From Rhizophagus irregularis (lineage: Eukaryota; Glomeromycota; Glomeromycetes; Glomerales; Glomeraceae), in assembly GCF_026210795.1 (NCBI RefSeq), contig NC_089453.1, positions 1,924,501-1,988,500 of the forward strand: a stretch of DNA of 64,000 bases, written 5' to 3'. This document shows, piece after piece, positions 4,017 to 55,073 of the stretch. Numbering within the stretch: position 1 is the first letter of the stretch; each line of letters opens with the position of its first letter. The translations under genes and the position numbers were made by a program. The notes under the pieces are model-generated. The model had not been told where the DNA came from. It saw only the letters and a list, made by a program, of their open reading frames with translations, and ran no database searches.

Positions 4017-7000
4017 ATGGGCCAATGTATTGGTAAAGGTAAAGCTTATAACATGATTAATAACATAAATTGAAATTATTCAAATTATTAAAATGAACTT
4101 GCAATATAATAAAACTAGTTTTGTGTAATACCAAAGAACCTGAAGGTAAATATTATATACAAAACAAAATTGAAATAATAAGACTTTTATTTAATTATAA
4201 ATAATCAAATATAATTAAACCAAATTTGAAATATAACAAAACTAGTTTCCAGTAATATTGAAGAATTTGAAGAAAGTGGTACTGGAAAATTTAAGGGAAG
4301 TGGCACTAAAGAATTTGAAAGTAGTAATATTAAGGAATTTGAAGAAAGTAACACCAAGGAATCTAAAGGTATATCAAACAAGCTGAAATATTAGAATTTC
4401 ATTTATAAACAATTCAAATACTATCTAGGCTAACTATATTATATAAAAATTATATTAAATATTTAGCTCGTAAGTTAATATAATGAATTACTCATTATTT
4501 TTATTGTATTCCATATAACTAAATAATTTATTCAATAATTAATAATCTGTAGTTAGTAAGTTATCAGTTATTTAAATCTTTACTTTATTTATTCTATACA
4601 ACATTCAAATAACTAAATTCTTTGTTTAAATAACTATTTAATAATTAATTGTATTACAGATGGTAAGTTACAATATAAATATTATATTTATTTGTTTAAT
4701 ATTTTACATAATTCAACTAATTATATTCTTAATTTAAATAACTAGATTGTAAGTAATATATATATAATTTACAATAATTACTTTTATATTAACTAATTAA
4801 TAATTAATAATACTACAGGGTGTAAGTTATATGATATCTATATTTATATTATTTGTACAATCCAATCTAACCAATTTCTTTATTTAAAAAATTATTAAAT
4901 AATATAGGGTGTAAGTTATTTATTTAATTCTATTATTACTTATTGTTATAATTTTTACATATAATTTAAACTATCTAATTTCTTTATTTAAAAAATTATT
5001 AAATAATATAGTGTGTAAGTTATTTATTTAATTCTATTATTACTTATTGTTATAATATTTACATATAATTTAAACTATCTAATTTCTTTATTTAAAAAAT
5101 TATTTCATAGATGGTAAGTTATTTATTTAATTCTATTATTACTTATTGTTATAATATTTACATATAATTTAAACTATCTAATTTCTTTATTTAAAAAATT
5201 ATTTCATAGATGGTAAGTTATTTATTTAATTCTATTATTACTTATTGTTATAATATTTACATATAATTTAAACTATCTAATTTCTTTATTTAAAAAATTA
5301 TTAAATAATATAGGGAGTAAGTTATTTATTTAATTCTATTATTACTTATTGTTATAATATTTACATATAATTTAAACTATCTAATTTCTTTATTTAAAAA
5401 ATTATTTCATAGATGGTAAGTTATTTATTTAATTCTATTATTACTTATTGTTATAATATTTACATATAATTTAAACTATCTAATTTCTTTATTTATTTAA
5501 TAGATCGTAAGTTATAAGTTATTTATTTAATTCTATTATTACTTATTGTTATAATATTTACATATAATTTAAACTATCTAATTTCTTTATTTAAAAAATT
5601 ATTAAATAATATAGGGTGTAAGTTATTTATTTAATTCTATTATTACTTATTGTTATAATATTTACATATAATTTAAACTATCTAATTTCTTTATTTAAAA
5701 AATTATTTCGTAGATGGTAAGTTATTTATTTAATTCTATTCTTACTTATTGTTATAATATTTACATATAATTTAAACTATCTAATTTCTTTATTTAAAAA
5801 ATTATTAAATAATATAGGGTGTAAGTTATTTATTTAATTCTATTATTACTTATTGTTATAATATTTACATATAATTTAAACTATCTAATTTCTTTATTTA
5901 TTTAATAGATCGTAAGTTATAAGTTATTTATTTAATTCTATTATTACTTATTGTTATAATATTTACATATAATTTAAACTAACTATCTAATTTCTTTATT
6001 TAAAAAAATTATTAAATAATATAGGGAGTAAGTTATTTATTTAATTCTATTATTACTTATTGTTATAATATTTACATATAATTTAAACTATCTAATTTCT
6101 TTATTTATTTAATAGATCGTAAGTTTATTTAATTCTATTATTACTTATTATTATAATTTTTACATATAATTTAAATTATCTAATTTCTTTATTTAAAAAA
6201 TTATTAAATAATATAGGGTGTAAGTTATTTATTTAATTCTATTATTACTTATTGTTATAATATTTACATATAATTTAAACTATCTAATTTCTTTATTTAA
6301 AAAATTATTTTGTAATTTATTTTAGTTGGTAAGTCATAAGTTATTTATTTAATTCTATTATTACTTATTGTTATAATATTTACATATAATTTAAACTATC
6401 TAATTTCTTTATTTAAAAAATTATTAAATAATATAGGGTGTAAGTTATTTATTTAATTCTATTATTACTTATTGTTATAATATTTACATATAATTTAAAC
6501 TATCTAATTTCTTTATTTAAAAAATTATTTCGTAGATGGTAAGTTATTTATTTAATTCTATTATTACTTATTGTTATAATATTTACATATAATTTAAACT
6601 ATCTAATTTCTTTATTTAAAAAATTATTTCGTAGATGGTAAGTTATTTATTTAATTTTATTATTACTTATTGTTATAATATTTACATATAATTTAAACTA
6701 TCTAATTTCTTTATTTAAAAAATTATTAAATAATAAAGGGTGTAAGTTATTTATTTAATTCTATTATTACTTATTGTTATAATATTTACATATAATTTAA
6801 ACTATCTAATTTCTTTATTTAAAAAATTATTTCGTAGATGGTAAGTTATTTATTTAATTCTATTATTACTTATTGTTATAATATTTACATATAATTTAAA
6901 CTATCTAATTTCTTTATTTAAAAAATTATTTCATAGATGGTAAGTTATTTATTTAATTCTATTATTACTTATTGTTATAATATTTACATATAATTTAAAC

Positions 7001-9318
7001 TATCTAATTTCTTTATTTAAAAAATTATTAAATAATATAGGGAGTAAGTTATTTATTTAATTCTATTATTACTTATTGTTATAATATTTACATATAATTT
7101 AAACTATCTAATTTCTTTATTTAAAAAATTATTAAATAATATAGGGAGTAAGTTATTTATTTAATTCTATTATTACTTATTGTTATAATATTTACATATA
7201 ATTTAAACTATCTAATTTCTTTATTTAAAAAATTATTTCGTAGATGGTAAGTTATTTATTTAATTCTATTATTACTTATTGTTATAATATTTACATATAA
7301 TTTAAACTATCTAATTTCTTTATTTAAAAAATTATTAAATAATATAGGGTGTAAGTTATTTATTTAATTCTATTATTACTTATTGTTATAATATTTACAT
7401 ATAATTTAAACTAACTATCTAATTCTTTATTTAAAAAATTATTAAATAATATAGGGTGTAAGTTATTTATTTAATTCTATTATTACTTATTGTTATAATA
7501 TTTACATATAATTTAAACTATCTAATTTCTTTATTTAAAAAATTATTTATGATCTAGCTTGTAAGTATCTCTATTGTTATAATTTTATATAATATTTATT
7601 TGTTAATTTAATTCTTTCATTTAAAATATCTGTTACTTTAGTTGGTAAGTTGTAAATTATAGATTATTATATGTATTTATCCAAAAGCTAAGACTTATAT
7701 TACATTAAATTCCTATTTAAATTTTAGAGTAAGTAATAATTTATTTTTTTGTAAATTATAATACAATCTATAACATAATAATTTTAATTATTTAAATTAT
7801 AGATTTGAAAAAAGTGGAAATGCAATTATAGATAAATTTATTCTTGAAAAAGGATTAAAATGGATTCCTTATGACAAATTTAAAGGGGTTGAACATCTTA
7901 GTGAAGGAGGATTTGGTACTATATACAGAGCTATTTGGTTAAAGAATAATGGAGATGAAGAAGTAATTCTTAAATGTCCCAAGAATTTAAATGAAGATTT
8001 AAATGAATTTTTAAAAGAGGTATGGTAGTATATTATTTTCTATTTTTAATTTAAATTAAAATTTATTTATATATAATAATATTATTATTTTTTATAGTGG
8101 GGATATCATGCAAGTGTTTTAACTTCAACTGATATTATAAATGTTTATGGATTCACAGAAGTTCCAAATACTTCAAAATATATGGTAGTAATGGAGTATG
8201 CAAATAAAGGTAATTTAAGAGAAAATTTAACAACAATAGTCGAAAATAGTTGGAATCAAAAATTATATATGTTGTACGAAATTATTTCTGGACTTAGTAA
8301 GATACATAAAAAAAATCTTATTCATTGTGATTTTCATGATGGTAATATTTTAAATCATGTTAATAAGAATAAGGATAAAATTTATATTAGTGATTTAGGA
8401 TTATGTCAACCTGTAAAATCGTTTTTGAAAAAGTATGATATTTATGGCGTTATACCATTTATGGCTCCTGAAGTTTTAAGAGGCAAACCTTATACTCCAG
8501 CTAGTGATATATATAGTTTTTCTATGATTATGTGGGAGTTTACATCTGGAATACCACCATTTAATAATAGAGCACATGATCTTGAACTTAGTTTAGATAT
8601 TTGTAGAAAAGGTGAACGACCTGAAATTATTGAAAATACTCCGCAATGTTATGTAGATTTAATGAAAAAATGTTGGAATGAAGATCCATTAAAAAGGCCA
8701 TCTACATCAGAAGTGGAAAATATTTTTGTTAATTGGATTTTCTGTCCTAGTGATGATAAAATTAATGAAGAATTAAAAAGCAACATTATGGAATTTATAA
8801 ATGCACCAATTGGGAATAACAATCTTGTTACAAAATCTCATCCTAAAGCATGTTATACAAGTCGCTTACTTGATTTTACTAGTAAAAAATTGAATGAAAT
8901 TCTTGAAAATGATTCACAAGCTAGTGTAAAAGCAAATGAAATGCTAGTAAGTGAAGATTTGAATGATTATATAATTAAGGATTTAGGGTCATCAGGTATG
9001 TATTATAATATATAAAAAATTAATCTTGCAAATTATTTATATGAAATTAATTAATTTATTTAATTATTAAACCAGATGAGAATACTAGTAAAAAGTTTAA
9101 TGAAATTCTTGAAAGTGAAGATTCACAAGCTACTAGTGTAAAAGCAAATGAAATACTAGTAAATGAAGATATGAGTGATTATATAATTAAGGATTTGGGG
9201 TCATTAGGTATGTACTATGATATATAAAAGGAATTAATCTTGTAAATTATTTATGTAAAATTAATTTTATTTAATATTTAATTATTTAGATATTAAAACA
9301 GATGAAAAAATCAACTAA
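4017..9318 (+). CDS. Protein kinase (TKL-like) with MGxC N-terminus, spliced, with microexon array
   Basis: Proposed exons: 4017-4038, 4119-4145, 4246-4368, thirty-three 3-nt exons (4467-7644), one 1-nt exon (7728), 7803-8019, 8098-8995, 9076-9207 and 9302-9318. They sum to 1536 nt, so the model closes in frame at TAA with 511 residues. Residues 1-4 are MGQC, a myristoylation-plus-palmitoylation type start, so membrane attachment is likely. Residues 8-57 are acidic, with repeated EFEES motifs. The kinase domain has the glycine loop SEGGFGTIY (124-132), VILK with Lys148, catalytic loop HCDFHDGN with Asp241 and Asn246, DLG in place of DFG (Asp262), MAPE (285-288) and SDIYSFSMIMWE with Asp300. 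All residues needed for catalysis are present. The C-terminal tail carries a duplicated segment of about 44 residues encoded by a duplicated exon. Kinases of this type form a very large family in Rhizophagus; the substrate is unknown. The domain is certain; the 5' exon chain is inferred from splice signals and frame. Confidence 0.85.
4369..7802 (+). repeat. Tandem intron array: 33 three-nucleotide microexons between complete introns
   Basis: From the end of exon 3 to the kinase-domain exon the DNA is a chain of 74-109-nt intron-like units. Nearly every unit begins GTAAGT, has a CTAAT or ACTAA branch-like motif about 28-40 nt before its end, and ends in TAG or CAG (once AAG, at 6738). Between one acceptor and the next donor there are always exactly three bases. 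First bases of these triplets: 4467 CTC, 4553 TTA, 4660 ATG, 4746 ATT, 4819 GGT, 4908 GGT, 5012 TGT, 5111 ATG, 5210 ATG, 5314 GGA, 5413 ATG, 5504 ATC, 5615 GGT, 5714 ATG, 5818 GGT, 5909 ATC, 6025 GGA, 6116 ATC, 6217 GGT, 6326 TTG, 6437 GGT, 6536 ATG, 6635 ATG, 6739 GGT, 6838 ATG, 6937 ATG, 7041 GGA, 7145 GGA, 7244 ATG, 7348 GGT, 7455 GGT, 7558 CTT, 7642 TTG. Units from 4908 to about 7550 are nearly identical (recent expansion). Those at both ends are diverged yet keep the same layout. Confidence 0.85.
7728..7728 (+). other. Candidate single-nucleotide exon (A)
   Basis: The sequence around it is TTTTAG-A-GTAAGTAAT: a good acceptor, one base, a good donor. All exons before it are multiples of three after a 22-nt first exon, so they leave phase 1. 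The kinase exon at 7803 is open only in phase 2; in phase 1 it hits TAG after nine codons. One extra base is exactly what is needed. It also creates a Glu codon, giving EFEKSG, which matches the EFEESG motif of exon 3. Confidence 0.65.
8874..9300 (+). repeat. Tandem duplication of exon plus intron at the kinase 3' end
   Basis: The coding stretch at about 8874-8995 and the exon 9076-9207 encode near-identical peptides (TSKKLNEILE.. / TSKKFNEILE.., both ending YIIKDLGS). The introns that follow are also alike, both starting GTATGTA and containing ATATATAAAA. The second exon is 132 nt with phase 1 at both ends, so the duplication kept the frame. Confidence 0.85.
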
Positions 9319-9410
9319 TCATTGTTTGTTCTTAAAAAAATTTATAGTTTTTTTAAGTGATATGTGATATTACGCATTCAAAAGAAATTGTTCTTTATTT
9401 TATTCTTTTT

Positions 9411-9610
9411 AGATTTATTTAAACACTAAGACCAGAGTAGTAAAATATTTTACAAGTTTCTTAGTTTGTAATTTAAATAATTCCTTTTTTTTTTTAGCTT
9501 TTCACTTTTTTTATTATACTTAGAATTATTTAAACACTAAGACTAGAGTAGTAAATATTTTACAAGTTTCTTATTTTGTAATTTAAATAAATCTTTTTTT
9601 TTATAACTTT
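9411..9610. repeat. Two-copy direct repeat, period about 111 bp
   Basis: AGATTTATTTAAACACTAAG at 9411 recurs with few changes at 9522. Each copy runs through ATTTTACAAGTTTCTTA to a T-run. It lies just downstream of the kinase stop; function unknown. Confidence 0.8.
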
Positions 9611-11816
9611 TCCAATTATGAGATATAAATTATCAAAATAATAAATATAAGGCTATTATTATTTGGCGACCCTGTACCCAACCTCATATCATATGATTTT
9701 TAATTTTTCCGATACTTTATTTTTTCAATATTTATTTTTTTAATTAGTATTATGAGCAAACAATAAACGAATGAATAAATAACTAAATGAATAAATGCAT
9801 GAATAAAACAAACAAAACTATTAAAATATCATGTCTATATACAATTTGTATACATTTTATTGAAAATTAACATGTATATGTTATAATTGATGCTCATATA
9901 TTGTATGAAACAACATAATTAGGGATAATCAGGGCTCATTCACTAAGTAATGATTAGGTGATAAATTGAGGGATATTTATCGGGAAATATCTTACTAATA
10001 TCACGTGATAGCTAGGAATATCATGTGAAATAAAAAAATTTGTCTAGTTTTCCTAAATAATACAAGCATTTTTATTCATTATCAAAGGAAAAAGAAATTA
10101 AAAAATTAATCTGATGTTTGTACTTCGAGAAAAATTTCTTGGCATAATTTTTCAGTATAATTTTTCAGTTATGAATCAATTTTCTTTACATACAGAAGTG
10201 TTTTTTTTTCTTGCAAATTTGATTTCACCAAATTTTTTAACTTTATTATTAAAGTTTATACAAAAATGCATTCACAAAAGAAACGCAGAATGAACAGTTA
10301 TCATTCAACTAGAAATCTAGAATGTCTCACTTTAATTATTGTCTAATAAAATTTAGAAAAACAGCAATTTATGCAAAATATTGGAATTCGAGATATTGGG
10401 ATTCAGGATATTGACAGGAAAAATCGAATTTTAGAAAATTGGGATTTGAGAAATAAGAATTCGAGAAATTGGATGTTTCAGGAAATTGTCTAGTTCAATG
10501 TGACCCGTACAATTGTAATAACAAGATGAATGAAATACAACTAATATGTGAGTATAATATTATTTGCAAGTTGCAACCAAAAAAAAAAAAAATTAATATT
10601 AACCGGTTAAGGTTTTTTTGAAAAGTTCTAACTTCGAAAATGTAGTAGATAAAGGTAGACACACGATCAAAACACATTTTCTTCAAAATCTATTAAAACA
10701 AAAGTTTTTGATATTAATCATAAAAAAAATTATTTTAAAATAACAGCTACAAGAAAGGGACGCATTTAACTCACCAACAATCATATCATCGATAGCTCTT
10801 TCACCAATAAGCAAATCTCATTGACAGATAATTTATAAATATTATGAAATTAAATATAAATTAAAAAATATATATATGACTTTCATATAAAAATACAAAA
10901 TTGTTCTTTTTTTTTTAACATGGTTCTAATTTAGTGATTATTATAGCTTTCAAATTTTTATTATTATCGCATATCATTTATCATTTTTATTAATTTTAAC
11001 TGGCAAAAACAAAAAAAAAGGTAATTTAATTTTCTTTAAAATGAGCAAAATGAACTGTCAATAAAATGATAGATGAAACATTTATCGCGAAATGGACTGT
11101 CAATAAAATGATAGTCGATGAAACATTTATTGCGAAATGACCACCCTATCGGTGAGACGTTTGTCGTTGAAGTGATTTTTGGTGAAATAATTGACGGTAA
11201 AATTAACCAGGCTTTATAGAAATAGGATACAGAGAATTAAAAGGACCAAACTAATAAGCTATTATTTTTGATAGTACTTTATCGTACTATACTTTGCAAG
11301 TATCGGCACCATCAAAGTGGTATTTCGAGTATCTAATATTTTTAACGTGACATGAAAATGTAAATGTTACTATGGTGGATCAGTTCGTAGTAAATAAACA
11401 AATTGTAAATTATTTAAATGACTTGCGTTACAGTGTGATGTAAAGTATATAAGATTGTGCATGTTATGTTAGTACGGTATATCTGATGATCTGAAACGAG
11501 GTTAATTATTGTGATGCAACATTAGATTTGAAAATCCAAAAATTTATTTGGCTATGATAATCGAATAAAGTTTTAAAGTTTCCATTTTTGGATCATCTTT
11601 ATATAAGAAGCATTTTATTAAGATGACGATCATTAGGTATTAGTTATAATATTTAAAAAATCTAATTAAAATCTAATTAAAATAGTCTAGATTAACATAA
11701 CTAAGGGTTTATTATTTTATTAACTTGATAACATGAAATTATTAATTTTATATATAGAATATGTTTTCAAGATTAAATCTAATGACAAAATTATTGTTCA
11801 AATTAAATTAATTAAA
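9611..11816. other. Noncoding A+T-rich stretch
   Basis: No convincing coding sequence on either strand. It contains a two-copy repeat of about 43 bp at 11053-11140 (TGTCAATAAAATGATAG...GATGAAACATTTAT) and scattered A/T runs. Confidence 0.5.
11053..11140. repeat. Two-copy 43-bp direct repeat
   Basis: CTGTCAATAAAATGATAG followed by GATGAAACATTTAT and GCGAAATG occurs twice back to back, with a 3-bp insertion in the second copy. Confidence 0.75.
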
Positions 11817-17036: not shown

Positions 17037-17450
17037 GTAACTCCTCCAATATTAATCATAGAGAGATGATCTTACCGCCATTCGATTCGTCTTGATGAGA
17101 CGGTTCTAATGGTATAAATTACATCGAAATCCAATCACTAGATTAATTTCCGAAATTAAAAAAATATTAATGGTTTTTGTGTAATAACTCTGCCAATATT
17201 GATCCTAGAGAGACGATCTTACTACCATTCGATTCGTCTTGATGCGACAAATCTAATGGTATAAAATACATCGAAATCTAATCACTAGATCAATTTCCGA
17301 AATTAAAAAATATTAAATAGTTTTTAAGTAGTAACTCCGTCAATATTGATCATAGAGAGATGAGCTTACCACCATTCGATTCGCCTTGATGAGGCGATTC
17401 CAACGAGCTATTAATCGTCTTTTTACAATCACTAGGTACCGAGATATTTA
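17037..17450. repeat. Tandem repeat, about 146-bp unit, three copies
   Basis: Units start near 17037, 17181 and 17325 and share AATATTGATC, AGAGAGATGATCTTAC, CATTCGATTCGTCTTGATG and AATCACTAG. A fourth, diverged piece lies at 19991-20070 beyond the tRNA-module units, so those units were inserted into this array. The motif TCGTCTTGATGAGACGA inside the unit is a short near-palindrome. Confidence 0.8.
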
Positions 17451-32171: not shown

Positions 32172-32968
32172 GCACCTAAGTGAAATTTTACAGAAGTCAA
32201 ATTCAAAACAAAAAATAAAGAAAGCAAGGGAGCTTATTAGATTTAAAAAAGTAAGTAATCTTATTGAAGTGCAAGTTTTTTCATTGGGGTCTACTGATTC
32301 TTCAAGAGGAATCAGTTATGTACTTTCCCCAATTAAACTTACACTTTGGCAGAATGACAAGCTGGCTTATCCTGTGCGAAGGAATATTTTCCTGGCCGTT
32401 ACTGGCTTGCCTTAGACGAAGAAGGTTCCTTTTGGCTGTAGCTTATCTTGTGTGAAGGAAATATTTTCCTGGCCGTCACTGGCTTGCCTTGGAGCTATGG
32501 CTTGTCCTGTGTGAAGGAAATATTTTCCTGGCCGTTACTGGCTTGCCTTGGACGAAGAAGGTTCCTTTTGGCTGTAGCTTATCCTGTGCGAAGGAAATAT
32601 TTTCCTGGCCTTTACTGGCTTGCCTTGGAGCTATGGCTTGTCTTGTGCGAAGGAGATATTCTCCTGGCCTTTACTGGCTTGCTTGGATGAAGAAGATTTC
32701 TTCTGGCCATGTCTTAGATTTCTAGCCATACGCTTATTATTACTTACTATCTATGTATATTATATATACTTACATTTTATTTCTTGATTTTTAGGAAGAT
32801 TTAAAAAAATTAAACGATCTGTGGAAAACACCCAACAAATTAAAAAATATTAATAAGCATGATGATAAAAGTATTGAAAATTATGAGCGAGCTTTGGCTT
32901 TCGAAGAATGTAAGCTTGAATTAAAGGAACGAGCAGCAAAAAAAAGTTCACTCATTAGAACTACATAA
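32172..32968 (+). pseudogene. Two-exon fragment of a basic coiled-coil-like protein
   Basis: Exon 32172-32250 (HLSEILQKSNSKQKIKKARE..) joins exon 32795-32968 (EDLKKLNDLWKTPNKLKN..) through a GTAAGT...TTTTTAG intron with phase kept, ending at TAA. The product is rich in Lys and Glu with heptad-like spacing. A run of seven A at the 3' end looks frameshifted, since another frame continues with HNIQVRNEIRFGWKGGQ. No start codon is seen, so this is part of a longer or decayed gene. The intron is filled by a minisatellite. Confidence 0.5.
32369..32710. repeat. Intronic minisatellite with alternating 77/58-bp units
   Basis: The core GAAGGAAATATTTTCCTGGC recurs five times, near 32376, 32452, 32510, 32587 and 32645. 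Spacings alternate 76, 58, 77, 58. Long units carry GACGAAGAAGGTTCCTTTTG and short units GAGCTATGGCTTGT, so the repeat grew as a 135-bp pair. It is G+C-richer than its surroundings. Confidence 0.85.
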
Positions 32969-52676: not shown

Positions 52677-55073
52677 TTATTCGGTAAGAATAAAATTAAA
52701 GGTCACAAGATGTTTCATGCGCACATAATTTTCCTCACAACTATTAGATTGATTTCTCCAATCTTCTTCAATTGACAAGGCTAATTTTTTTGGAATCTTA
52801 ATTTTTTCTTTTTCATCAACTGATCTTAAAGTATTACTGTTGTTTGTGATACAATCAATTTGATTATCCCAAAATTGATATAAAATATCCACATTCGTAA
52901 TAATTACGGGAAGCTTGTTTTTAATTTCAAAGATTTTGTTATTCTTTTGCTGAGATAATTCTTCTAATCTCTGTGATTTACGTTTACGATCCTTCATCCA
53001 CGGGAGATATAGTTTAGGTTTTGTTATACGCAAAAGAATCCACATTAATAAAGCTATCAAGATACCGAAAACAATGGCATTCACATATTGTGATACGTGA
53101 ATCTGGTCCGTCTGATTAATTTCATTTGTGTGATTATTAACGACATTGGGGTGAACCGGGTTCATCTGGTTCGATAAAGAAAATCCACTTGTTTGATTTG
53201 TTTGATTATTAGTGTCATTAGTGTGCGTCCCTCCACTTGTTTGATTATTAGTATCATTAGTGTATGTCCCTCCATTTGTTTGATTATTAGTATCATTAGC
53301 ACTAATAGTGTTTGGTAGTGATTCTTCAAAGTTACACAACCAGGAAAGCCACGAAGGACACCAAGTTGTAATTTCATCCTTTGGTATTTTCCCACCATTT
53401 TGTGATTCTTTACCATTTTGTGGTTCTTCACCATTTTGTGATTCCCTATCCTTTTGTGTATCCTCATCCTTTTGTGATTCCTTATCATCGGGAAAGTTTT
53501 TGGGATGCAGAACTGTGGAGATTTGTGAAATTATCAGATCTCCATTCTTTGGTGATTTCCCATCATTTGGTGGTTTCGCGTTTATTTGATTATTAGTATC
53601 ATTAGTGTATGTCCCTCCATTTGTTTGATTATTAGTGTCACTAGTGTCATTAGCATGCGTCCCTCCGTTTATTTTATTACTAGTATCGATAGTGAATGTC
53701 ACTCCGTTTGTTTGATTATTAGTATCATTAGTGTGCGTCCCTCCACTTGTTTGATTATTAGTATCATTAGCACTAATAGTGTTTGGTAGTGATTCTTCAA
53801 AGTTACACAACCAGGAAAGCCATGAAGGACACCAAATGTTAATTTCATCCTTTGATATTTTCCCACCATTTTGTGATTCTTTACCATTTTGTGGTTCTTC
53901 ACCATTTTGTGATTCCCTATCCTTTTGTGTATCCTCATCCTTTTGTGATTCCTTATCATCGGGAAAGTTTTTGGGATGCAGAACTGCGGAGATTTGTGAA
54001 ATTATCAGATCTCCATTCTTTGGTGATTTCCCATCATTTGGTGGTTTCGCGTTTATTTGATTATTAGTATCATTAGTGTATGTCCCTCCATTTGTTTGAT
54101 TATTAGTATCATTAGTACTAATAGTGTTTGATAGTGGTGCTTTAGAGTAGCACAACCAGGGAAGCCACGAAGGACACCAAGTTGTAATTTCTTCCTTTTT
54201 TTTCTCATTCTGTGATTTCTCATTCTTTGGTGATTGCCTATCCTTTAGTTCTTTCTCATTATTTAGTGGGTTATTATCCTTTTTTAATTCCTCTTCCTTT
54301 TGTTTTTCCTCATAATTTGATGATTTCTTACCACCACGTAGTCCCTCATCCTTTTGTTCTTTCTCATCATTTGATTTCTTATCCTTTTGTGGTTCCTTAT
54401 CCTTTTGTTTTTTCTCATCATTTGATGATTTCTTATCCTTTTGTGGTTCCTTATCCTTTTGTTTTTCCTCATCATTTGGTGATTTCTTATCCTTTGATGC
54501 ATTATGACCCAACGTTCTCCACAATATCTCTGGTATGTTATTGCATGCGTTATCTTGATTAGATGAAAGAGGATCACAATTCATATTTAGATAAAATATA
54601 AATGTACTAAATAAAAAAGATAAAATCGGTATGACAAATTCTGGATTTTTAATTTCGATTTGTTCATTATTTAAATTATCTATCACATAATAATTGTTAA
54701 AATTTTCAAGGAAGTCTTGATAATCTTGTCTTAATCTATTTGTACTTTCTCGTCTATTTCTCGCTTCGACTAATAAAGATGATAAAATTATTAAAATTGC
54801 TTCTACAGTTTCACTTTCTTTTGAAAGTGCATCCATATATATGGCGACATTCTTAGAATACGAAGAATGTTTAAAAGATTCTTGAGCTCTTCTTTCAGTT
54901 AAAGTATTAATTGAAATATTAAATTTTTTAATTTCGGTATCATTCCCATGAAGTTCGAGTTCTAGTTTTCTGCATTTATTGAAGGCTTCTAATACTTCAT
55001 TCGTTTGATTTTCAAGAATATCAAGTTGTGGAAAGTTTGGATTTTCCCATAATTCTAATTTTATCGTTACCAT
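52677..55073 (-). CDS. Coiled-coil / membrane-hairpin protein with a repeat-expanded loop of about 500 residues
   Basis: Single-exon frame of 798 codons. I chose the ATG at 55071-55073 (MVTIKLELW) because the 29 codons upstream are hydrophobic A/T-rich text absent from the paralog at 55647. Layout: helical, Glu/Arg/Asn-rich coiled coil (20-140); membrane segment FVIPILSFLFSTFIFYL (146-162); Lys/Asp/Glu repeats with KDKE and NDEK motifs (192-310); a 157-residue duplicated block containing WCPSWLSWLC and NDTNNQT sequons; second membrane segment IVFGILIALLMWILL (667-681); and a helical C-domain with YQFWDNQID. WCPSWL motifs start at 299, 414 and 571. More than a dozen NxT/NxS sequons imply that the loop faces the secretory lumen or cell exterior. 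Family unknown. The helix-hairpin-helix plan recalls alpha-pore-forming proteins, but that is only a structural analogy. Confidence 0.75.
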   Translation of the reverse strand: MVTIKLELWENPNFPQLDILENQTNEVLEAFNKCRKLELELHGNDTEIKKFNISINTLTERRAQESFKHSSYSKNVAIYMDALSKESETVEAILIILSSLLVEARNRRESTNRLRQDYQDFLENFNNYYVIDNLNNEQIEIKNPEFVIPILSFLFSTFIFYLNMNCDPLSSNQDNACNNIPEILWRTLGHNASKDKKSPNDEEKQKDKEPQKDKKSSNDEKKQKDKEPQKDKKSNDEKEQKDEGLRGGKKSSNYEEKQKEEELKKDNNPLNNEKELKDRQSPKNEKSQNEKKKEEITTWCPSWLPWLCYSKAPLSNTISTNDTNNQTNGGTYTNDTNNQINAKPPNDGKSPKNGDLIISQISAVLHPKNFPDDKESQKDEDTQKDRESQNGEEPQNGKESQNGGKISKDEINIWCPSWLSWLCNFEESLPNTISANDTNNQTSGGTHTNDTNNQTNGVTFTIDTSNKINGGTHANDTSDTNNQTNGGTYTNDTNNQINAKPPNDGKSPKNGDLIISQISTVLHPKNFPDDKESQKDEDTQKDRESQNGEEPQNGKESQNGGKIPKDEITTWCPSWLSWLCNFEESLPNTISANDTNNQTNGGTYTNDTNNQTSGGTHTNDTNNQTNQTSGFSLSNQMNPVHPNVVNNHTNEINQTDQIHVSQYVNAIVFGILIALLMWILLRITKPKLYLPWMKDRKRKSQRLEELSQQKNNKIFEIKNKLPVIITNVDILYQFWDNQIDCITNNSNTLRSVDEKEKIKIPKKLALSIEEDWRNQSNSCEENYVRMKHLVTFNFILTE
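53210..54200 (-). repeat. 471-bp in-frame tandem duplication in the coding sequence
   Basis: Text such as CCCATCATTTGGTGGTTTCG at 53569 recurs at 54040, exactly 471 bp on, and the long surrounding blocks are almost identical. A third, diverged partial copy reaches about 54200. Since 471 is 157 codons, each duplication adds one WCPSWLxWLC plus sequon module without changing the frame. Confidence 0.9.

Follow-up and report, generated by a model that had tools for sequence, protein, structure and literature searches.

Predicted chains of one-codon exons in a protein kinase gene family of Rhizophagus irregularis

The window analyzed here is a stretch of 64,000 nucleotides from Rhizophagus irregularis (positions 1,924,501 to 1,988,500 of contig NC_089453.1, in the 146.7 Mb, 32-contig assembly GCF_026210795.1), with a GC content of 27%. 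It contains a protein kinase gene in which the segment ahead of the kinase domain is very probably coding sequence that has been cut into single codons. Thirty-three exons of three nucleotides each, followed by one exon of a single nucleotide, lie in a row between complete introns, and these would be joined by constitutive, stepwise splicing through the units in order, with the one-nucleotide exon closing the reading frame. Arrays of the same kind were found upstream of kinase exons elsewhere in the assembly. Consecutive inclusion and translation of the units are favored. That the arrays are transcribed and spliced in this way, as well as the order and mechanism of splicing, we infer from genomic sequence.

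The array occupies positions 4369..7802 on the forward strand, as do all features of the gene given below. Between the end of exon 3 (4368) and the start of the first kinase-side exon (7803), the donor at 4369 (GTATAT) is followed by 34 acceptor-donor pairs, so that the array comprises 35 introns of 70-113 nucleotides. In 33 of the 34 pairs the acceptor and donor are exactly three nucleotides apart, and in the remaining pair they are one nucleotide apart (an A at 7728). All 34 array donors, from 4470 to 7729, are GTAAGT, and the acceptors are TAG or CAG, with AAG once (6736-6738). A sequence-only reading of this stretch had described the 33 triplets between complete introns, these donors and acceptors, and both ends of the array, all of which were confirmed; it had missed the one-nucleotide exon at 7728.

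The reading frame in the window depends on the array. Exon 1 (4017..4038) encodes MGQCIGK plus one nucleotide (phase 1), and is followed by exon 2 (4119..4145; 27 nucleotides, TAG acceptor, GTAAAT donor) and exon 3 (4246..4368; 123 nucleotides), which ends AAA G in phase 1. When these exons were joined to the 33 triplets, the single A and the kinase exons, no stop interrupted the 463 codons that run from MGQCIGK into the kinase. Full inclusion places 100 nucleotides (33 x 3 + 1) between 4368 and 7803, reading CTCTTAATG...CTTTTGA, and the predicted peptides of the included array include ALNDWWLYDGNDR and FGYDGYDGR. Inclusion of all the triplets without the A led to a stop, and the kinase frame closes because of this one-nucleotide exon. 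A single splice from 4368 to 7803, the product that the sequence-only reading had set against a chain of microexons, would likewise run out of frame into a stop. Computation of the exon 3 phase covered the window alone, and an exon resembling it, ending AAAG or GAAG, was present in most of the other arrays. The first kinase-side exon (FEKSGNAIIDKF..., 7803..8019, donor GTATGG) matched no family when searched alone against Pfam, and the next exon (8098..8995) encodes the protein kinase domain; positions 8098-8997 matched PF07714 (E 5.6e-34, 118 bits, cut-off 23.1) and PF00069 (E 7.9e-33, 114.4 bits, cut-off 31.7).

The three-nucleotide spacing was also prominent across the assembly. The pattern TAG-N3-GTAAGT occurred at 6,435 places, compared to 1,477 for the reversed-pattern control, while spacings of one, two and four nucleotides occurred at 1,023, 1,054 and 881 places, each below its reversed control (2,164, 1,972 and 2,227, respectively). 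A longer pattern, TAGNNNGTAAGTTATTTATT, occurred at 1,824 places and its reversed control at none. As a measure of the chance level, [TC]AG stood at spacing three for one of the 33 GTAAGT sites on both strands of five random 10-kb stretches (L024-L028). In viral_contigs, 27 stretches had one match each and no array.

Thirteen array loci besides the window were fetched from the longer-pattern matches listed on contigs C1 and C2. Eleven of the 13 were long arrays like that of the window, and the other two were fragments of two units (L011) and one unit (L015) with no kinase found by tblastn in either 10-kb stretch; these orphan units are probably decayed or scattered copies. Conversely, all eight loci fetched for their kinase matches carried an array, two of these matches having been chosen also for an adjoining TAGAGTAAGT and six being without the usual first unit upstream. 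There were at least 153 matches to the kinase-side exon in the assembly. For the 67 kinase matches listed on contigs C1-C11, a search for the usual first unit, TAGCTCGTAAGT, in the 13 kb to either side found it upstream on the strand of the kinase in 40 cases, and downstream, with both strands counted, in one. Of 60 clusters of the first unit, 41 had a downstream kinase among the matches listed. More distant kinases, of about 40-45% identity, were present in the random stretch L024 and in the flanks in L019 and L030. We estimate that there are roughly 5,000 one-codon exons across some 150 or more kinase genes. In one locus, L012, the last units are separated from the kinase exon by a long stretch that contains foreign-looking sequence (about 6000-7400 of the reverse complement); this may be an insertion, and the array is perhaps disabled.

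Gene models were built for 19 arrays from a splice-signal score that allowed exons of three, one or six nucleotides and used no coding information inside the array. The models required GT or GC and AG at intron ends; they did not require GTAAGT or the branch-like CTAAY. For the start of the kinase exon, an exon open in the expected frame was chosen. The 13 fuller models contained 563 microexons: 546 of three nucleotides, four of six nucleotides, and 13 of one nucleotide, one per array. In all 19 models there were 741 microexons, of which 717 were of three nucleotides, five were of six nucleotides, and again one per array was of a single nucleotide, an A in 17 models, G in L018, and C in L022-23. 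The donor was GTAAGT at 474 of the 563 microexons in the fuller models, and the acceptor was TAG at 531, CAG at 27, and AAG at five. For ordinary upstream exons, a simple rule gave 27 candidate donors, some of them perhaps not real, and none was GTAAGT.

Strong evidence for the array as coding sequence came from the order of the units. When the 13 fuller models were joined and translated from the exon 3 G, all were open with no stops. There were no stops at 530 adjacent junctions, whereas shuffling the order within arrays gave 19.6 (sd 3.5), with none of 2,000 shuffles as low, and joining at lags 2-5 gave 20, 20, 25, and 22 stops versus 17.6-18.3 expected. For all 19 arrays there was one stop in 694 adjacent junctions, where shuffled order predicts about 22, and at lags 2 to 6 there were 21, 24, 28, 23, and 23 stops in 674 to 600 junctions. 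The contrast was retained when only distinct triplet pairs were counted (one stop in 291 at lag 1, 15-21 in 286-297 at lags 2-6) and when whole arrays were counted (18 of the 19 were free of stops at lag 1, eight to ten at lags 2-6). Since stops were nearly absent only for consecutive order, adjacent microexons appear to be read together in the frame of the flanking exons, which gives strong support to the suggestion in the sequence-only reading of a transcript spliced through successive one-codon exons. A retrocopy of the spliced 3' end was not found: a 20-base pattern with up to two mismatches occurred at seven places (reversed control, three), all with two mismatches, and three of the seven were the genomic acceptor TTTAG|ATTTGG.

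These results bear on two other explanations of the array. One is that the units are a satellite within a single large intron, carrying splice-like motifs that were inherited with the repeat and are not used. Units in the middle of the window array are indeed near-identical tandem copies, as a satellite would be. However, a satellite does not account for a scarcity of stops that depends on exon order, for a direct splice that is out of frame in the window, or for the one-nucleotide exon in every modeled array. This highly improbable explanation was rejected on the order-dependent stop test and the frame. The other is that different triplets are skipped to give a ladder of isoforms, as the sequence-only reading had also proposed. 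Its premise that any number of triplets can be skipped without loss of frame was correct, and the window product with the one-nucleotide exon but no triplets is open. However, skipping one to five exons produced 21-28 stops compared to one at adjacent junctions, indicating that skipping junctions are not protected, and most donors share one strong sequence, GTAAGT. Alternative inclusion is unlikely, and as a selected feature the ladder is unsupported, although triplets may now and then be skipped in frame.

Several points weigh against constitutive inclusion of a chain of codons, or reduce the weight of the models that support it. In the window, the product that contains the A but no triplets is in frame as well. 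One of the six added arrays, L064, has a stop at a CGT|AAC junction and is a possible pseudogene or has a missed unit, and the six together had one stop in 164 junctions versus 2.3 expected, so they have little power; their models also begin at an early unit rather than at the first. Introns longer than 140 nucleotides, of which there are 28 in the 13 fuller models and three in the six added, may hide missed units. Of the 12 arrays on which the splice matrix was trained, 11 belong to the 13 fuller models, and conservation of splice sites is partly built into the models. The kinase exon start was set by hand in L021 and L029, and the acceptors at which this exon was joined in L009, L014, and L016 are weak (scores of -1.3 to -1.6). 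Three of the 14 array loci found by pattern, counting the window, are outside the models (L011, L015, and L012, whose kinase exon could not be placed). Finally, 19 of the 60 first-unit clusters had no downstream kinase among the matches listed, three of which (L012, L014, and L016) do have a kinase by tblastn.

The introns of the arrays look like spliceosomal introns. Their median length was 96 nucleotides (5th to 95th percentile, 78-120). A branch-like CTAAY lay 18-48 nucleotides before the end in 72% of 722 array introns from the 19 models, compared to 13% of base-shuffled ends. In the window, CTAAT or ACTAA began 18-48 nucleotides before the intron end in 30 of the 35 introns and at 28-40 nucleotides in 24, so the claim in the sequence-only reading of such a site in almost every unit is borne out only for the wider interval. 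With GT-AG ends and consensus donor and branch sequences, these introns have the features of U2-type introns. Strong donors and complete introns would fit recognition by intron definition. An exon of three nucleotides can hardly hold the factors of both sides at once, and neighboring introns are therefore probably removed sequentially. In the proposed mechanism, each complete intron of about 70-120 nucleotides, usually with GTAAGT, a branch-like CTAAY, and TAG, would be removed by intron definition and in order. Removal of one intron would deposit three nucleotides and present the next GTAAGT as a donor, giving a ratchet that advances one codon per step, until the final one-nucleotide exon sets the frame of the kinase domain.

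This ratchet recalls recursive splicing, in which the ratchet points of Drosophila are reported to be juxtaposed acceptors and donors that form zero-nucleotide exons and leave nothing in the mRNA (PMC8605326). The sequence-only reading had offered the units as stepping stones of this kind, which would aid the removal of one long intron. The acceptor and donor do lie side by side, and stepwise removal would be common to both systems. A version with no trace in the mRNA is nevertheless very hard to credit and leaves the frame evidence unexplained. The spacing in the models is three, one, or rarely six nucleotides, and the three nucleotides read as codons; no array locus scanned had a spacing of zero on its array strand; and in the window a zero-nucleotide product would not keep the frame. 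The part of the proposal that stands is stepwise splicing, with the difference that the arrays would keep three nucleotides at each step.

Other known systems share single aspects of these arrays. Schistosoma micro-exon genes (MEGs) are reported to have 10-20 short exons, mostly of 15 bp, with introns of 0.1-5 kb; the abstract puts the exon range at 3-81 bp and the main text at 6-81 bp (PMC10526429), and isoforms arise by alternative splicing (PMC10399815). Like MEGs, the modeled arrays are runs of very short, mostly frame-neutral exons with variable products, as the sizes of the 741 modeled exons show. Unlike MEGs, they have 18 to 80 exons of exactly three nucleotides (in the 13 fuller models), introns of about 95 nucleotides, and a place in a kinase family, with no sign of protected skipping. 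Secretion is a further trait of MEG proteins; the product of the window gene is a predicted kinase. Single-nucleotide exons are described in Arabidopsis (PMC4674806) and in CYP621A of the fungus Fusarium, where the frame depends on it and its splicing is confirmed by RNA reads (PMC12940212). Those papers describe single cases, whereas here the one-nucleotide exon, without which the window gene meets a stop, follows one-codon exons in each of the 19 modeled arrays. In stwintrons of the Hypoxylaceae, one intron is reported to split the splice signal of another (PMC8469720, PMC9024468). Both are complex, repeated spliceosomal introns in fungi, but array introns are consecutive, with a codon between each.

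The predicted product of an array is a segment with related ends, often A-L-N/D/E-D-W ... F-E-F-G-K-S-G, around a variable middle. In the window, the first five microexons, CTC (4467-4469), TTA (4553-4555), ATG (4660-4662), ATT (4746-4748), and GGT (4819-4821), would with the exon 3 G encode A-L-N-D-W, and codons related to these open most other arrays. They are followed by 26 variable microexons spanning 4908..7457, with first bases at 4908, 5012, 5111, 5210, 5314, 5413, 5504, 5615, 5714, 5818, 5909, 6025, 6116, 6217, 6326, 6437, 6536, 6635, 6739, 6838, 6937, 7041, 7145, 7244, 7348, and 7455. The last triplets, CTT (7558..7560) and TTG (7642..7644), are the common near-last and last three-nucleotide units. 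The 13 fuller models contained 18 to 80 three-nucleotide exons, for segments of about 19 to 81 residues. Ten of the 13 began with A-L, and ten had Trp in fifth position (fourth in L010 and L029, which read V-S-D-W; the exceptions are L013, L014, and L021). Ten ended F-(E/K/R)-(F/Y)-(G/E)-(K/T/N)-S-G, the exceptions being L013, L014, and L022-23; every residue of this motif except the first two is encoded by the kinase exon. Exon 3 of the window consists at 4261-4368 of 24-nucleotide coding repeats (KEFEES-like); EFEKSG, the peptide at the joined end of the array, resembles one further repeat. A start exon of the form ATGG...AAG or ATGG...GAG, resembling exon 1, was seen by eye upstream of 12 of the 13 other arrays (exception, L009).

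Comparison of related units indicated that the codon bases are less conserved than the introns beside them. Among units with identical 20-nucleotide flanks, the triplet differed in 33 of 65 haplotypes, while nine intronic places differed in 4 to 9 of 45 to 60. For 517 pairs of nearest relatives within arrays, mismatch was 3.6% at the donor, 3.1% at the acceptor, and 43, 32, and 54% at the three exon bases, with 24-25% in the intron interior, a figure that is lowered because pairs were chosen by similar introns. For 589 pairs between arrays the values were 4.7%, 3.3%, 45, 31, and 57%, and 17-21%, respectively. Since the units were identified by their splice sites, part of the conservation there is to be expected. 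The contrast between codon and intron is smaller in the identical-flank control than in the pair counts. Codons split across introns showed synonymous changes, such as Leu as C|TT or C|TC and Asn as A|AT or A|AC; Leu is C|TC in L021, L022-23, and L030, and Asn is A|AC in L021.

Differences among codons may instead reflect codons that are older and have not changed quickly, around which introns were copied or homogenized between places by gene conversion or intron mobility. The window and L065 share units in which both neighboring introns are identical, although the kinase exons are 87% identical, so the introns are younger or more homogenized than the genes, and because bases near splice sites are constrained, flanks may look more similar than their age would suggest. 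On the other hand, the class of the triplet (NGN, ATN, or TTN) tracks the class of the intron, which suggests that triplets travel with their introns, and the wobble base (Y) changed less than the bases X and Z in most classes compared. Homogenization is a plausible source of the differences, though not the one that we would expect.

We tentatively suggest, with more doubt than confidence, that the arrays are a codon-diversifying device. The similar introns would act as recombination surfaces on which whole codons are gained, lost, or swapped in frame, and the codon bases would change faster than the adjoining introns by strong diversifying selection or a process aimed at codons. The kinases would thereby have a repertoire of variable segments, some probably membrane-attached, that would suit recognition of self and non-self or of partners. 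Confidence in this proposal was lowered slightly because of the smaller contrast in the identical-flank control. Units may multiply by unequal exchange inside similar introns, which would shift the length of the segment by whole codons, and a block repeat in L022-23, in which the peptide KRIDWNNNRKFDIKKK occurs twice, looks like a trace of such an exchange. Diversifying selection may drive the codon changes. The segment is perhaps a recognition or docking part next to the kinase domain, in a kinase that may be attached to the membrane in some members; the start of some members, MGQC, is myristoylation-like.

The window also contains other repeats. These include several tandem repeats at 53198-54495 with periods divisible by three (18, 36, 39, and 54 nucleotides), which are perhaps coding, a repeat of 136 nucleotides in 2.6 copies at 32363-32707, and two further tandem duplications at 9393-9612 (111 nucleotides, 2.0 copies) and 17038-17393 (147 nucleotides, 2.4 copies).

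Kinases have expanded into a large family in arbuscular mycorrhizal fungi, and no mention of microexon arrays in this expansion was found among the open papers listed. Nor was any report of arrays of one-codon exons found among them, bioRxiv and most subscription papers being outside the search. A survey of minor introns that treats the introns of R. irregularis makes no mention of such arrays at the 12 places, of 20, that were covered (PMC10639083). If transcripts confirm the arrays of one-codon exons, the spliceosome of this fungus would routinely join dozens of three-nucleotide exons and a one-nucleotide exon in a single message, which would put both intron definition and the lower limit of exon size to an extreme test. 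The codon would be a unit of duplication and recombination in gene architecture, and the variable part of a large kinase family would be one that gene predictors and RNA-seq aligners easily miss.

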